A stretch of 40,933 bases of DNA from positions 1 to 40,933 of the forward strand of contig JAFGVX010000034.1 in the NCBI GenBank assembly GCA_016937775.1, read 5' to 3'. The translations under genes and the position numbers were made by a program. This DNA comes from Campylobacterales bacterium (GTDB taxonomy: Bacteria; Campylobacterota; Campylobacteria; Campylobacterales; Sulfurovaceae). Position 1 is the first letter of the stretch. Every line of letters starts with the position of its first letter. This document shows positions 1,531-23,966 of the stretch, piece after piece. The notes below the pieces were generated by a model. That model did no database searches. It saw only the letters and a list, made by a program, of their open reading frames with translations, and was not told the origin of the DNA.

Positions 1531-2916
1531 ATGAAAAGATTTGTAGTAATGTCCTTGATGGCGACTGCGGCAATCACAGCAACAAATGCTGCAACAAATG
1601 CTGAGCTAGAAGAGAGAATCAGGGTTTTAGAGGAGATGGTCTACGGTCAGCAAAAAAAGATTAAAAATAATCAAAAAACGATTGTAGAAGTCAAAAAACA
1701 TGATGCTTTTGATAATATCAAGTTTGGAGTAGATTTTAGAAACTCTATCGATATGTTAGATTATAAAAATAATATAACAGGAGAGAGTGCAAAGAATGAC
1801 TCACTGCTTTCGAGTAGATTGTATCTTACGATGGCTGCCGCTCCGACAGATAAGCTGATCTTTAAAGGGAAGCTTGCGATCTATTCACTTTGGGGCGCAC
1901 ATCTTTTTGGAGAAGATTCAGGCCTGAAAGATTGGTCGGCAAGTTCAAAAGCAACCGATACGGTTATGAGAGTCAAAGAGGCATATTTTGTCTATTCTAC
2001 AAAGTATGGAGAGCAACCTGTGAGTTATTCAATAGGTCGCCGACCTTCAACAGATGGTGTTTTGGCTAATTATAGAGAAAACAATCCTGAAGAGGGATCG
2101 CCTTTGGCTCATATTACAAATATGGAAGTTAATGGCTTAATGGTCAAACTTGATTGGGATAGATTTATTCCCGGAGCGTATACAAAACTAGTAGGTGGTC
2201 GTGCACATACGGGAGCCACAACAGGTGCTTATAGCATTGGATATACGACTCCATGGGGTCCAAATGCAGATAATGCTGATTCAGAAGATGACAATGTCGA
2301 CTTCTTTGTGGCAGTTGGTGATGCATACAATAATGGTCAATATCAAGTGATGTATGAGTGGGCACATATATTTAATACAAAAGGTCAAAATGTTGACACG
2401 GGCAATACAGCAGTAGGTGCAGGAACGGCAGACCTTTTTGCTCTTGGATTTAAAGTTGACGGGATTGGCGATGACATCGATGGATTTTTAGCAAATACAA
2501 CAGCGTTTATCTCCGGTGCATATACACACTATAGTGCGGATAATGGATATCAGATATTGGGTGCTGAGGGTGGAACTAGAAATGGTAGTTCTATCTGGGC
2601 GGGAGTTATCTTCCCCGATATGATTACAGAAAAAGGGAAGATAGGGCTTGAGTATAATCATGGGTCAAAATATTGGACTCCGATGACATGGGCAGAAGAT
2701 ACAGCCATTGGCTCTAAAATTGCAGTGCGCGGTGATGCATATGAAGCATATTGGAACTTCAATCTTTTTGGCGAAGAATATCTTCCAGCGCAGATTAGAT
2801 ATACTTACGTGCAACACGACTATACACCTACTATCAATTGTGCGGGTTGGGTTCCTGTAGAAGGCGTAGATATCACAGCTCAAGATCTCAGATTTTCTGT
2901 AAGTTACAAATATTAA
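1531..2916 (+). CDS. DUF3373-family outer-membrane protein (putative porin)
   Basis: Probable outer-membrane beta-barrel protein of the Campylobacterota DUF3373 family, 461 residues. The start chosen is ATG 1531 because AGGAGG at 1520-1525 sits five bases before it; a GTG three bases earlier is too close to that site. Residues 1-21 form a signal peptide (MKRFVVMSLMATAAITATNA). A short coiled coil follows (ELEERIRVLEEMVYGQQKKI), as in trimeric porins with N-terminal helices. The remainder alternates aromatic and polar residues like a barrel and ends in LRFSVSYKY, with the C-terminal aromatic residue expected for BAM recognition. The substrate is unknown. The gene is monocistronic, with a hairpin directly downstream. 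The family is recognised by its pattern, not by a search. Confidence 0.8.
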   Translation: MKRFVVMSLMATAAITATNAATNAELEERIRVLEEMVYGQQKKIKNNQKTIVEVKKHDAFDNIKFGVDFRNSIDMLDYKNNITGESAKNDSLLSSRLYLTMAAAPTDKLIFKGKLAIYSLWGAHLFGEDSGLKDWSASSKATDTVMRVKEAYFVYSTKYGEQPVSYSIGRRPSTDGVLANYRENNPEEGSPLAHITNMEVNGLMVKLDWDRFIPGAYTKLVGGRAHTGATTGAYSIGYTTPWGPNADNADSEDDNVDFFVAVGDAYNNGQYQVMYEWAHIFNTKGQNVDTGNTAVGAGTADLFALGFKVDGIGDDIDGFLANTTAFISGAYTHYSADNGYQILGAEGGTRNGSSIWAGVIFPDMITEKGKIGLEYNHGSKYWTPMTWAEDTAIGSKIAVRGDAYEAYWNFNLFGEEYLPAQIRYTYVQHDYTPTINCAGWVPVEGVDITAQDLRFSVSYKY

Positions 2917-2919
2917 CAC

Positions 2920-2966
2920 ACATAAAGCTACAATCAATTTCTTGGTTGCAGCTTTATGTCTATTTC
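2920..2966 (+). terminator. Rho-independent terminator after the porin gene
   Basis: The perfect 10-bp arms ACATAAAGCT (2920-2929) and AGCTTTATGT (2950-2959) extend inward through one mismatch to CAA/TTG. The hairpin starts four bases after the porin stop codon and is followed by a modest T-rich run (CTATTTCTTTC). It separates the porin from the nuo operon. Confidence 0.7.
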
Positions 2967-3291
2967 TTTCAATAGATAAATCCCGCAATCATACTCAAAT
3001 AGTAAAAATATCTACATATTTTGATAAAAGTTGTTATCAAATAAGGTTAAGTCGGTAATATTTTGTATGGAATTTGCATGCAACTTGGGAAGATGTAAAT
3101 AATTTTGGGGCTGTTTTTTTATCATAATCTATATTGAAAACCCCCTTTTATTGCTATTTAATCTGTTTCACTTTGTTACAATGCATTTCAAAGAGAAAAG
3201 CGCGAGGAGATAGTTAAAATAATTTAATTATCTTTTGGATACTATTATACATCTAAAGAATGAGTACTCACGCAATAAAAAGGGGTTTTCA
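2967..3291. other. Leader/intergenic region upstream of nuoA
   Basis: A 325-base gene-free stretch, rich in structure. It has an 8-bp palindromic hairpin TTTGATAA/TTATCAAA (3020-3041), the left arm of a 22-bp inverted repeat (3133-3154), and a TACAAT hexamer (3177-3182). It also has an orphan Shine-Dalgarno-like GAGGAGAT (3204-3211), an AT-rich hairpin (3208-3233) and a short leader ORF (3260-3295). No known RNA family was recognised. Confidence 0.6.
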
Positions 3292-3293
3292 AT
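3133..3293. repeat. 22-bp inverted repeat enclosing the nuo promoter region
   Basis: The left arm is 3133-3154 and the right arm 3272-3293. They are reverse complements with one mismatch (C3145 against A3281) and a 117-base spacer. The right arm includes the likely Shine-Dalgarno sequence AAGGGG and the first two bases of the nuoA start codon. In RNA the arms would form a long stable helix that hides the nuoA start. In DNA the layout resembles an invertible segment. Confidence 0.85.
3151..3182 (+). promoter_or_regulatory. Candidate promoter of the nuo operon
   Basis: TACAAT at 3177-3182 is the best -10 match in the nuoA leader. TTGCTA at 3151-3156 could serve as a weak -35 but with a 20-bp spacer, so the -35 is doubtful. 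Transcription would start near 3189, leaving a leader of about 100 nt. The hexamer lies inside the segment bounded by the 22-bp inverted repeat. Confidence 0.35.
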
Positions 3294-3295
3294 GA
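3260..3295 (+). CDS. Possible 11-residue leader peptide overlapping nuoA start
   Basis: ATG 3260 opens an 11-codon frame ([11 protein letters not shown]) whose TGA stop (3293-3295) overlaps the nuoA ATG (3292-3294) in an ATGA arrangement typical of translational coupling. Its codons run through the right arm of the inverted repeat, so a translating ribosome would unwind that arm. The upstream ribosome site (TAAAGA) is weak. Whether it is translated is unknown, and chance is possible for such a short frame. Confidence 0.3.
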   Translation: MSTHAIKRGFQ

Positions 3296-3693
3296 CCGGT
3301 GAATTGTCGCACATTATTTCGGAACATCCATATTTTGGAGTGTTTGCATTTTTTATCGTAGCTGTTGTTGCTTTTCCTGCAACCTTGGTTCTTACAAGAT
3401 TCATCAGCAGAAAGCTTGCCAAGCTTGATAGGGAAAAGCTAAAGTTGAGTATCTATGAATGTGGTCCTGAAGTTACGAAGCAGCCAAACAGTATATCTGT
3501 ACAGTTCTATCTTGTAGCACTTCTTTTTATATTGTTTGATGTTGAGATTATCTTTATGGTTCCGTGGGCGATTGATTTTAAAGCACTTGGTTGGTTTGGT
3601 TTTGTCGAGATGGTACTTTTTATATTTTTACTTACAATCGGTTTTATCTATGCGTGGAAGAAAGGAGCTCTTGAATGGCACAACATAAAGTAA
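3292..3693 (+). CDS. nuoA: NADH-quinone oxidoreductase subunit A
   Basis: Small membrane subunit of complex I at the junction of the hydrophilic and membrane arms, 133 residues with three transmembrane helices. The loop after helix 1 has the family signature YECGPEV with its conserved cysteine (quinone-site loop), followed by [20 protein letters not shown] with the conserved acidic FDVE. ATG 3292 is chosen because it gives the normal N terminus and follows AAGGGG at six bases; a TTG-initiated extension from 3235 would add 19 atypical residues. It is the first gene of the nuo operon. Its 3' end overlaps nuoB by 19 bases. Confidence 0.96.
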
Positions 3694-6204: not shown

Positions 6205-6434
6205 AAAGATATGATTTAAGAGATTTGCATAAAGATTTCTATAAAAGAATGATAGAACTTATTGATAGTGATCTAAGTGGTGGAGAAGTAGGCATATTTC
6301 TTTTTGAGATCGGTGATTTTTCTTCTGTGCAAAAGAGTGCGGATATTATTAAAAAGCATAAGCATGAGCTTTTAAATTCGCTTAAGTTCAATGAAGTTGA
6401 TTGGACGATAGTAATTAGGAAAAAGGCTGATTAA
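6201..6434 (+). CDS. NuoE-position mini-subunit (HP1264/Cj1575c-like), no cysteine
   Basis: A 77-residue soluble protein in the slot where nuoE lies in other bacteria. Its size and position match the small Campylobacterota subunits HP1264 of Helicobacter and Cj1575c of Campylobacter, recalled from those gene orders rather than aligned. It contains no cysteine, so it cannot bind the [2Fe-2S] cluster N1a of classical NuoE. Visible blocks are [20 protein letters not shown] and [15 protein letters not shown], suggesting a small alpha/beta fold. It overlaps nuoD by four bases and the next gene by one base, so it is translated with the complex. It probably anchors or modulates the replaced electron-input module. 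Confidence 0.8.
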
Positions 6435-8446
6435 TGTCTAAGACTATTTTCTCAACCTGGAGGGATGAATTTGTTGACAATAGATACCTAAGCGGTAATA
6501 CTTGTCAAGTTTCATCTTTCAAATTGCCAAGAGATTATAGTGTCGATAAAAAATCAAAAGCATTTATAGGCTGGGACGGTGTTGCGATATTTGATGAGGA
6601 TGTCGATGTTGTAAGGCTTGCATGTGAGTATGCTGCGCAGTATCAAAAATATTCTGAAGCCTGCGGAAGATGTGCACCGGGAAGATGGGGTGGACGTATT
6701 TTGTATGATCTGCTAGATAAGATAGCAAGAGGCGAAGGTTCACAAGCAGATATCGAACACCTTAAAGAGGTGAGTGAGACGATGATGATAACATCAAAAT
6801 GTGAGATAGGACGAACGACACCGAAGCCTATTTTGGATCTGATTGAACACTATAGAGAAGAGTTTGATATACTTATCGAAAAGCAGATACCTTCAAAAGA
6901 TTATACAAATGAAGATATAAATTATATCGCAAAAGTAACCGCTCCGTGTATGGATATGTGTCCTGCGCACGTTGATATACCTGCATATATCGAAGGTGTA
7001 CGTGATATGCAGTTTGATAAATCTTTACAATCAACAAGACAAACAATGCCTTTGGCGCATACTTGCGGAAGAGTATGTCCACATCCTTGCGAAGATGCGT
7101 GTCGTAGAGCAAATCTTGATGAGCCTATCTCTATCATGGAGCTTAAACGTATCGGGGCTGATTTTGAAACGGATCACTCTTTGCCGTGGCAACATCCAAA
7201 AGAGCCTCAACCATTTCGAAATGACGGAAAAAAAGTAGCGATTATCGGAGCAGGTCCCGCAGGACTCACGGCAGCGTATTATCTTGCGCTTGAAGGGATA
7301 AAGGTTGATATCTTTGAAGAGTTACCGGTACTTGGAGGTGAGGTTGCCGTTGGAGTACCTGAATATCGGATGCCGATCGAAAAATACAACAAAGATATAC
7401 AGCTTGTTACTTCAATGGAAGCCGTGGATGTTTATACAAATACAAGAGTGGATGCAGCAAAACTTAAAGAGCTTGATAGCGAGTATGATGCGACGCTTTT
7501 GGCATTTGGCACACGGCTTTCTAAAAAAGTAAGAGCCGAGAATGAACGCTTAGATATGGAAGGATATTGGGGTGCTATAGCGATGCTTGATAAAGTAAAT
7601 TTATGGCACAAATATCGCATAGGTTCTCCTGTAAGTGAAGATCTTAAAGATAAGGTTGTCGTTTGTGTGGGTGGTGGCTTTACATCGATGGATGTCGTAC
7701 GATGTGCCGTAAGAGAGGGTGCAAAAAAAGTCATTATGCTCTATAGAAGAGACGAGAAAACGATTATTAGAAATACGACTTATGAGGAGTATCATGAGGC
7801 TGTTGAAGAGGGTGTTGAATTTATCTTCCACTCAGCCGTTGAGCGAATATTTGATGAAGACAACAAACTTAAAAAATTACTCATTAATAGATTTGAGCTT
7901 GTTCCTTCTCCTCAGGGTGGCAGAGCAGAGCTTGTAAAGATAGAGGGAGGAGATTTTGAGATAGAGTGTGATTATCTCATTCCCGCCGTTTCTCAATCGG
8001 CCGATTTGACATTGTTGCCAAAGGAGTGGGATATAGAACTTACCTCTTGGGGAACATTGCAAACTAACGGTAAAGATTATATGACATCACGTCCAGGACT
8101 TTTTGCGGCGGGTGATTGCGAATATGGTCCAATGACGATTGTTAATGCGGTTGGTCAAGCCAAAAGAGCAGCTTCTGTGATATCAAGATATATCTATAGC
8201 GGAACAATCAGTCTCAATGATGATGAGATTATGGAAGATCATCTCAGAGAGTTGAATGTTTATGATAAAAACGAGAAGATTACAGGCTGGATGCAGGAAC
8301 AACCAAGAGAGCAGAGTAAAAAACTCTCAGTCGCCCAAAGAGTTGACAACAATAAAGAGGTCAATTTGGGCTTTAGTGGAGAAGAAGCACTTGCTGAGGC
8401 ACAACGGTGTATGCGATGTTACTATATATCGATGGCGGTGGTGTAG
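6434..8446 (+). CDS. NuoF-like Fe-S region fused to GltD/NfnB-type FAD-NAD(P) oxidoreductase
   Basis: A 670-residue hybrid in the nuoF slot. Residues 43-145 resemble only the C-terminal Fe-S part of NuoF (SEACGRCAPGRWGGR, later TSKCEIGRTTPKP); the FMN/NADH-binding domain of NuoF is absent. The N3-type motif has C77, C80 and C123, but Gly83 replaces the third cysteine. Residues 165-245 are a GltD-type N-terminal domain with C172, C176, C211, C215, C219 and C223 (HTCGRVCPHPCEDACRR). An FAD fold follows (GAGPAG 272-277), then an NAD(P) fold (GGGFTSMD 413-420, YRR 437-439), FAAGDCEYGP, and a final RCMRCYY. The YRR arginines suggest NADPH. It probably feeds electrons into complex I, or accepts them, in place of NuoF. 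Confidence 0.85.
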   Translation: MSKTIFSTWRDEFVDNRYLSGNTCQVSSFKLPRDYSVDKKSKAFIGWDGVAIFDEDVDVVRLACEYAAQYQKYSEACGRCAPGRWGGRILYDLLDKIARGEGSQADIEHLKEVSETMMITSKCEIGRTTPKPILDLIEHYREEFDILIEKQIPSKDYTNEDINYIAKVTAPCMDMCPAHVDIPAYIEGVRDMQFDKSLQSTRQTMPLAHTCGRVCPHPCEDACRRANLDEPISIMELKRIGADFETDHSLPWQHPKEPQPFRNDGKKVAIIGAGPAGLTAAYYLALEGIKVDIFEELPVLGGEVAVGVPEYRMPIEKYNKDIQLVTSMEAVDVYTNTRVDAAKLKELDSEYDATLLAFGTRLSKKVRAENERLDMEGYWGAIAMLDKVNLWHKYRIGSPVSEDLKDKVVVCVGGGFTSMDVVRCAVREGAKKVIMLYRRDEKTIIRNTTYEEYHEAVEEGVEFIFHSAVERIFDEDNKLKKLLINRFELVPSPQGGRAELVKIEGGDFEIECDYLIPAVSQSADLTLLPKEWDIELTSWGTLQTNGKDYMTSRPGLFAAGDCEYGPMTIVNAVGQAKRAASVISRYIYSGTISLNDDEIMEDHLRELNVYDKNEKITGWMQEQPREQSKKLSVAQRVDNNKEVNLGFSGEEALAEAQRCMRCYYISMAVV

Positions 8447-22977: not shown

Positions 22978-23966
22978 AGTTGACACAAGAGTTTATAGAA
23001 CTTACAAAAGGGAAACGTTTATTATTGGCATTTTCTGCCGGTATTGATTCGAGTGCACTCTTTTTCCTCCTTATGGATGCAGGTGTCAATTTTGACATTG
23101 CTATTGTCGATTATGAGACAAGAGCACAGTCTAAAAAAGAGGTTGCTTATGCGCAAGAGTTGGCTCAAAAATATGCTTTACGATGTTATGAGACCAAAGC
23201 TCCAAAATTTTCAAATAATTTTGAGGCAAACGCTAGAGCATTTCGATATGATTTTTTTGAAGATATTATAGTAGAGCACGGGTATGATATCTTGCTTACG
23301 GCACATCAACTTAATGATAAGTTAGAGTGGTTTTTGATGCGATTTGTAAAGGGCTCAGGAGTCTGTGAGCTCATAGGGTTAGAAGCAAAGGTGCAAAAAG
23401 AGAGATATTTGTTGCTTCGTCCGCTTTTGGGATATGCTAAGAGCGAGCTTTTAGCATATTTAGAAAAAAACAAGCGTAGATATTTTATAGATGATAGTAA
23501 TAGCGATGAGAGTTATGAGAGGAATTTCTTTAGAAAACATTATAGTGATGCTCTTCTTACGGAGTTTAGAGTTGGGATTCAAAGAAGTTTTGATTATATG
23601 AAAGATGATTGCTTGAAATTGCAAAGCGGCTATAAATCTCTTTATGCTCAAAAAGAGCTAAGAGTACTTAAAATTGATGATATGAGAGTAAGAGTAAATG
23701 CGATAGATAAAACGCTCAAAGAGTTAGGCTATCTGCTTAGTAAATCACAAAGAGATGATATCAAAAAAAATGACTCACTCGTTATAGGTGGTAGTTGGGC
23801 TGTTGAAATATATGACGATAAGATATATATTTCTCCTTATGTTGATGCTACGCTTCCAAAAGAGTTTAAAGAGCTTTGCAGAGTGGCTAAAATTCCACCT
23901 AAGGTGCGACCGTATTGTTTTAAGCAAGATATTGAGATAGATAAGATACTTAACTCTTTTGATTAA
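22974..23966 (+). CDS. tilS: tRNA(Ile)-lysidine synthase
   Basis: ATP-dependent modification of C34 of tRNA-Ile(CAU) to lysidine, needed to read AUA, a frequent codon here. The 330-residue protein starts with GTG 22974 in a GTGA overlap with rimO. The PP-loop reads LLLAFSAGIDSSALF, with Ala in place of the first Gly of SGGxDS. The HQLNDKLEWFLMR block follows. It is a short-form TilS: the long C-terminal domains of E. coli TilS are reduced. Its 3' end overlaps the convergent recombinase gene by 17 bases. Confidence 0.9.
   Translation: MKLTQEFIELTKGKRLLLAFSAGIDSSALFFLLMDAGVNFDIAIVDYETRAQSKKEVAYAQELAQKYALRCYETKAPKFSNNFEANARAFRYDFFEDIIVEHGYDILLTAHQLNDKLEWFLMRFVKGSGVCELIGLEAKVQKERYLLLRPLLGYAKSELLAYLEKNKRRYFIDDSNSDESYERNFFRKHYSDALLTEFRVGIQRSFDYMKDDCLKLQSGYKSLYAQKELRVLKIDDMRVRVNAIDKTLKELGYLLSKSQRDDIKKNDSLVIGGSWAVEIYDDKIYISPYVDATLPKEFKELCRVAKIPPKVRPYCFKQDIEIDKILNSFD

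Follow-up and report, generated by a model that had tools for sequence, protein, structure and literature searches.

Upstream of nuoA (NADH-quinone oxidoreductase subunit A), two 22-nt arms form a nearly perfect inverted repeat that closes on the start codon. The question raised by this locus is whether the repeat regulates complex I, as an invertible promoter segment or as an RNA helix, or whether it is a mutational trace around the promoter. The window, by which we mean the whole 40,933-base stretch of DNA analysed, is one complete contig among the 108 that make up a draft genome of 1.49 Mb, and the host is a Sulfurovum-like member of the Campylobacterota. The nearest relative, G008 (locus L032; an uncultured Epsilonproteobacteria MAG), has a NuoA that is 89% identical, and the next nearest loci are mostly from Sulfurovum and related MAGs. 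The repeat is a true, non-random one, seen in one lineage and most likely left as a replication scar around a well-conserved nuo promoter.

The inverted repeat and its setting

The arms (3133-3154 and 3272-3293) are complementary at 21 of 22 pairs (95%), with 117 nt between them. The nuoA ATG lies at 3292-3294, and the right arm stops within this start codon and spans the Shine-Dalgarno sequence AAAAGGGG. A 22-bp repeat with one mismatch, ending on the nuoA start and burying its Shine-Dalgarno sequence, had been described in the initial annotation, and on direct reading its coordinates proved exact; the TACAAT (3177-3182) and the minus-strand TATAAT (3249-3244) that it had placed between the arms can both be read there. 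A nuoA-nuoD run lies downstream of the repeat and a DUF3373 gene (PF11853) precedes it, here called porin-like after the label used in that annotation. The relevant features are as follows.

2915-2964, plus strand: hairpin directly after the DUF3373 gene (23 nt, 83% complementary)
3133-3154, plus strand: left arm, located 5' of the promoter and predicted to be absent from nuo mRNA
3164-3180, plus strand: tandem box TGTTTCACTTTGTTACA, both halves of which fit the HP1021 box KGTWDCD at a 10-nt spacing
3223-3245, plus strand: putative promoter core TTTAATTATCTTTTGGATACTAT, assigned by TTTAA...TANNWT homology, about 59 nt from the box
3272-3293, plus strand: right arm, which takes in the ribosome-binding region of nuoA and the two leading bases of its start codon
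3292-3690, plus strand: nuoA (NF006303, 207.6 bits, cut-off 145)

The hairpin at 2915-2964, which the terminator scan did not list, is possibly the terminator of the DUF3373 gene. The place after nuoD where NuoE/NuoF might be expected is taken (6434-8446) by a gene for a GltD-like flavoprotein of 670 aa; its residues 32-146 form a NuoF C-terminal-like segment, with a match to NuoF 296-408 that stays below the cut-off.

Repeats with arms 50-300 apart were scored at +1 per match and -2 per mismatch. With a score of 19, the repeat at nuoA is the only one in the window to reach at least 17. A sample of 143,842 bases from the rest of the genome held two repeats at 16 and none at 17 or above, and the highest score in 20 order-1 Markov versions of the window was 15. 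The repeat is real and lies beyond composition noise. Across the 80 related loci (447,291 bases), one repeat scored at least 17, that of L045, which at 21 exceeds the one in the window. L045, a Campylobacterota MAG contig, carries long inverted repeats at 118-217, 232-405, 1121-1289 and 2056-2173, two of them near-copies about 900 nt apart, and is possibly a repeat array.

The arms in relatives and the origin of the left arm

All 11 genus genomes examined have nuoA. Aligned with the window, G008 is identical in 107 of 117 columns of the spacer (91%), which has the same orientation, and in 20 of 23 columns of the right arm (87%), whereas the left arm reaches only 15 of 25 (60%) and other upstream DNA 108 of 169 (64%), which puts the left arm in DNA that changes quickly, directly ahead of a conserved promoter block. 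The G008 arms are only partially complementary, and in G002 the C tract is absent at the position of the left region. We then compared complementarity to the nuoA ribosome-binding region across 74 upstream regions, namely the window and 73 of the 80 related loci (seven with less than 250 nt upstream were dropped). The window stands at z -6.66, the 73 others at a mean of -0.14 and G008 at -0.72; L043 (z -2.93, 0 of 60 shuffles as good) and L085 (z -2.88, 1 of 60) come next, and none of the 73 other nuoA loci approaches the window. Mild upstream complementarity is seen in L043, L055 and L056 (z -2.9 to -2.3, -20.0 kcal/mol each). The initial annotation had named in advance a lack of conservation of the arms in relatives as one of three grounds for abandoning its functional proposals, and this is what G008, G002 and the 73 other loci display. 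Judged from these genomes, the repeat looks private to the host lineage among the relatives examined.

Between the left arm of the window and the reverse complement of the window's right arm there is one edit; against that of the G008 right arm there are four, a distance that comes to 8-12 for 145 other 22-mers taken from this intergenic stretch. The G008 left region is seven edits away. The left arm is not unusually diverged, because a distance of seven edits to G008 is common in the intergenic stretch (32 of 145 22-mers). Within G008, the left region matches its own right arm at 12 of 23 positions without gaps (simulated background mean about 11.5 of 22), at six edits and with a best duplex of -15.3 kcal/mol. 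We infer that in the host lineage a replication template switch, in which the reverse complement is briefly copied, gave the left arm its present sequence with the right arm as template. Such a switch would give a near-perfect arm in one step; its seed was perhaps an imperfect repeat of older date around AAACCCC/GGGGTTT, part of which G008 retains.

Other routes to such a repeat have to be weighed against this one. Drift in AT-rich DNA could in principle have made the complement by chance, and the higher-scoring repeat of L045 in 447 kb of related loci is one comparable case; however, none of 180,000 simulated divergences from the G008 left region as ancestor reached 21 of 22 (maximum 18), and with nothing above 15 in the Markov windows we consider chance very improbable. 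The roughly 161 nt bounded by inverted repeats might also recall a MITE-like mobile element inserted at nuoA, but the spacer contains a promoter common to most related loci, is conserved in G008 without such termini and, like the arms, is single copy in the host genome. This candidate was rejected, and we attach practically no weight to it. A template switch has its own difficulties. Replacement of one arm by the reverse complement of the other would fit the four edits against seven in the comparison with G008. Because no outgroup keeps a comparable left region (G002 is without the C tract), the change in the left arm may have run either way, and the repeat could be ancestral and have disappeared from G008. 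A spacer of 117 nt is on the long side for a template switch, the seed remaining in G008 is weak, and selection for a helix in one lineage is not separable from a copying accident. On balance, we think it probable, with a good deal of room for doubt, that the repeat is a lineage-specific template-switch scar, that the conserved element is the promoter between the arms, and that nuo mRNA carries the right arm only.

The promoter between the arms and the predicted RNA

A 17-nt box, TGTTTCACATNGTTACA, was scanned for upstream of nuoA in 75 regions (the window and 74 of the 80 loci; six with less than 200 nt upstream were dropped) and scores 14-16 of 16 in 54 of them. Scores of at least 14 were absent from the Markov, reverse-strand and reversed-pattern controls. 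At 12 or more, 73 of 75 regions have the box in the forward direction and the reverse strand never exceeds 12; the reversed pattern reaches 12-13 in 26 of 75 regions, so only scores of at least 14 were counted as strong. With one mismatch allowed, TGTTTCACWTNGTTACA appears a single time in each of the 11 genus genomes, just upstream of nuoA and on its strand, giving 11 matches compared with two for the reversed pattern. At up to two mismatches, 59 whole genomes gave 181 matches against 231 for the reversed control, which is uninformative at such looseness.

Downstream of the box, TTTAA-N11-16-TANNWT is present in 63 of the 73 boxed regions (Markov control, 128 of 1,460), a count that, like those for the box, is not an independent test, both patterns having been chosen by inspection of overlapping loci. 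In 62 of the 63, TTTAA follows the start of the box at 58-62 nt, whereas the spacing between the -10 and the beginning of the NuoA match varies from 42 to 166 nt; the box is thus in phase with the promoter. In the window the -10 by homology is TACTAT (3240-3245), and the pattern also fits TATTAT (3243-3248). This assignment follows from conservation, since a consensus scan of 2850-3350 found no sigma-70-type site (shuffles mean 2.9). The minus-strand TATAAT overlaps this -10 region. TACAAT, noted between the arms in the initial annotation, overlaps the second half-box, and the bases that would complete it as a -10 are unconserved (A in 24 and T in 18 of 71). Transcription of nuo would thus be governed by what lies between the arms, a tandem box some 59 nt ahead of a TTTAA...-10 promoter, and would start near 3252.

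What this promoter implies for the RNA depends on the left arm. The predicted fold of 3100-3330 has -53.9 kcal/mol (z -3.35), a value that none of 200 shuffles matched, and the arm duplex -27.0 kcal/mol. The nuoA Shine-Dalgarno sequence (3278-3285) is predicted to be unpaired at 0.14 when the RNA includes the left arm and at 0.50-0.64 when it does not, each in six of six folds; the hiding of a ribosome-binding site known from RNA regulators is thus predicted only for RNA that includes the left arm. Transcripts starting near 3252 would carry the right arm only and be translated normally. Ordinary nuo mRNA should escape the lock because the start site expected for the conserved promoter comes after the left arm, while read-through RNA from upstream would pair the arms and hide the nuoA start, as a predicted side effect. 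An earlier proposal that a helix silences nuoA on read-through transcripts is therefore borne out in silico by the accessibility values, but no comparable partner occurs in the 73 other loci; its companion claim, that transcripts from an internal promoter escape, agrees with a promoter downstream of the left arm, although TACAAT had been the wrong place for it. The further suggestion of a thermosensor or attenuator finds no backing: the helix is not expected on normal mRNA, and neither Rfam nor the 73 other loci yielded the conserved structure or known family expected of a riboswitch, thermosensor or RNA regulator. The single Rfam match (16.1 bits against a gathering score of 50, minus strand inside nuoA) was discarded, and a known RNA family was rejected with it. 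No intrinsic terminator was called in the arm region (2850-3350 of the window).

In G008, the Shine-Dalgarno sequence is predicted to be unpaired at 0.48 in read-through RNA, at 0.42-0.43 without the left region and at 0.30 in RNA starting at the left region; the fold has z -1.45, and 16 of 200 shuffles are as good. The G008 left region (L032, about 2811-2865) contains a local GGGG/CCCCC hairpin followed by T-rich DNA, which is terminator-like and was not called by the scan. Within L032:2500-3060 the scan called a single terminator, at 2673-2650 on the minus strand and immediately following the porin-like gene.

These values bear on whether the left arm could have been selected as a lineage-specific RNA insulator, which would silence unscheduled complex I translation on porin-gene read-through and leave nuo under its own promoter. 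Such a role fits the fall in predicted Shine-Dalgarno accessibility with the left arm, the stability of the duplex and of the whole fold, and the right arm ending on the start codon; the hairpin and T-rich DNA at the equivalent spot of G008 could also block read-through. However, none of the 73 other loci has a comparable case (next z -2.93), so covariation cannot be asked for, and in G008 sequestration is unclear outside RNA that starts at the left region, the fold is unremarkable and the hairpin was not called as a terminator. We regard the insulator as unlikely. That the left arm is a newborn selected RNA lock, arising from a single template switch and hiding the nuoA start on read-through only, we would put forward as a long shot; if true, it would be a rare snapshot of a regulatory RNA helix born in one mutational step.

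Inversion of the segment by a site-specific recombinase at the 22-bp arms, which would make complex I phase-variable, fares less well. The arms do flank a promoter, a flip would change the right arm by one base only and leave nuoA translatable, and the genome has two tyrosine recombinase family matches and one resolvase family match (36.9 bits). Yet the box faces nuoA in the same way in all 11 genus genomes and, as given above, is a forward element in nearly all upstream regions, the contig assembled through the site, and the arms are unique in the genome at up to three mismatches, which leaves no family of sites. The Xer-like gene at 23950 (under the NCBIfam cut-offs), which the initial annotation had put forward as a possible recombinase, lies about 21 kb from the repeat and has relatives in 11 of 11 genus genomes (10 full length or nearly so, G003 in two pieces), whereas the repeat was seen in the host only. 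Arms kept in relatives together with a switch were not found in G008, G002 or the 73 other loci. Our literature search returned no paper pairing Sulfurovum with phase variation and, by title, no Campylobacter study combining an invertible promoter with inverted repeats. No inverted form was seen; a minority orientation may exist, but we give inversion very little credence.

A candidate regulator and known systems

At L179:1483-2376, the host genome encodes a protein of 297 aa whose receiver domain is weak and whose Fis-type helix-turn-helix falls below threshold. Its gene sits between ispDF (NF006899, 472 bits, cut-off 417) and a sulfate adenylyltransferase-like gene; Cj1609 we likewise take to be a sulfate adenylyltransferase. 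Cj1608 is reported to be located downstream of Cj1607 ispDF (PMC4435418). Judged by its domains and neighbours, the product is a candidate CemR/HP1021-like atypical response regulator.

HP1021 is described as the H. pylori member of the CemR proteins and Abu0127 as the Arcobacter butzleri member (PMC11334517). The half-boxes TGTTTCA (3164-3170) and TGTTACA (3174-3180) both fit KGTWDCD, the consensus given for the HP1021 box in the available part of PMC8266642, as a CemR/HP1021 promoter should; across loci the second half-box fits only where T or G precedes GTTACA, and many loci have neither. The nuo promoter looks like one of the CemR kind on this evidence, and the protein acting at the tandem box would probably be of the CemR/HP1021 kind.

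A striking inverted repeat over a start codon can thus be the mutational scar of one lineage, and attention shifts to the conserved tandem regulator box, which is phased to the nuo promoter in most related loci.

Measured against the defining properties of invertible promoters (invertons), the window has inverted repeats around its promoter, but it differs in its one orientation, its single-copy arms and the absence of a dedicated invertase among the genes found nearby. It is closer to template-switch or quasipalindrome mutations, described in the accessible text of two papers as homogenising the arms of inverted repeats (PMC8604942, PMC8794818): a near-perfect repeat in one lineage faces an imperfect one in a relative, and one arm resembles a reverse-complement copy of the other. 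Unlike typical cases, the window has a 117-nt spacer, a weak seed in the relative and an ancestor that is not reconstructed; the yeast study, as far as its available part goes, considered spacers of at most 70 and saw a preference for shorter ones (PMC8604942).

Two regulators are known at nuo promoters. HsrA/HP1043 is reported to bind the H. pylori nuoA promoter through TTTAAG repeats, with an affinity below that for its best sites (PMC5253667). The window nuoA promoter has a TTTAA-type element too, which may be related to the HsrA/HP1043 site and is a lead only, although a second TTTAAG repeat is not clearly present in the window. Arcobacter butzleri CemR (Abu0127) is reported to bind the nuoA-N promoter and support its expression; without it, nuoB expression drops to 0.3 and the oxygen response is lost (PMC11334517, available part). 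The window case differs in that its box, a predicted site, is tandem, 10-nt-spaced and promoter-phased, but it shares with the control described there the same operon, the same bacterial class, boxes that fit KGTWDCD and a CemR-like gene beside ispDF. The tandem box, found once per genome in the genus and phased to the nuo promoter in most related loci, hints that complex I is under CemR-type control in Sulfurovum-like bacteria too.
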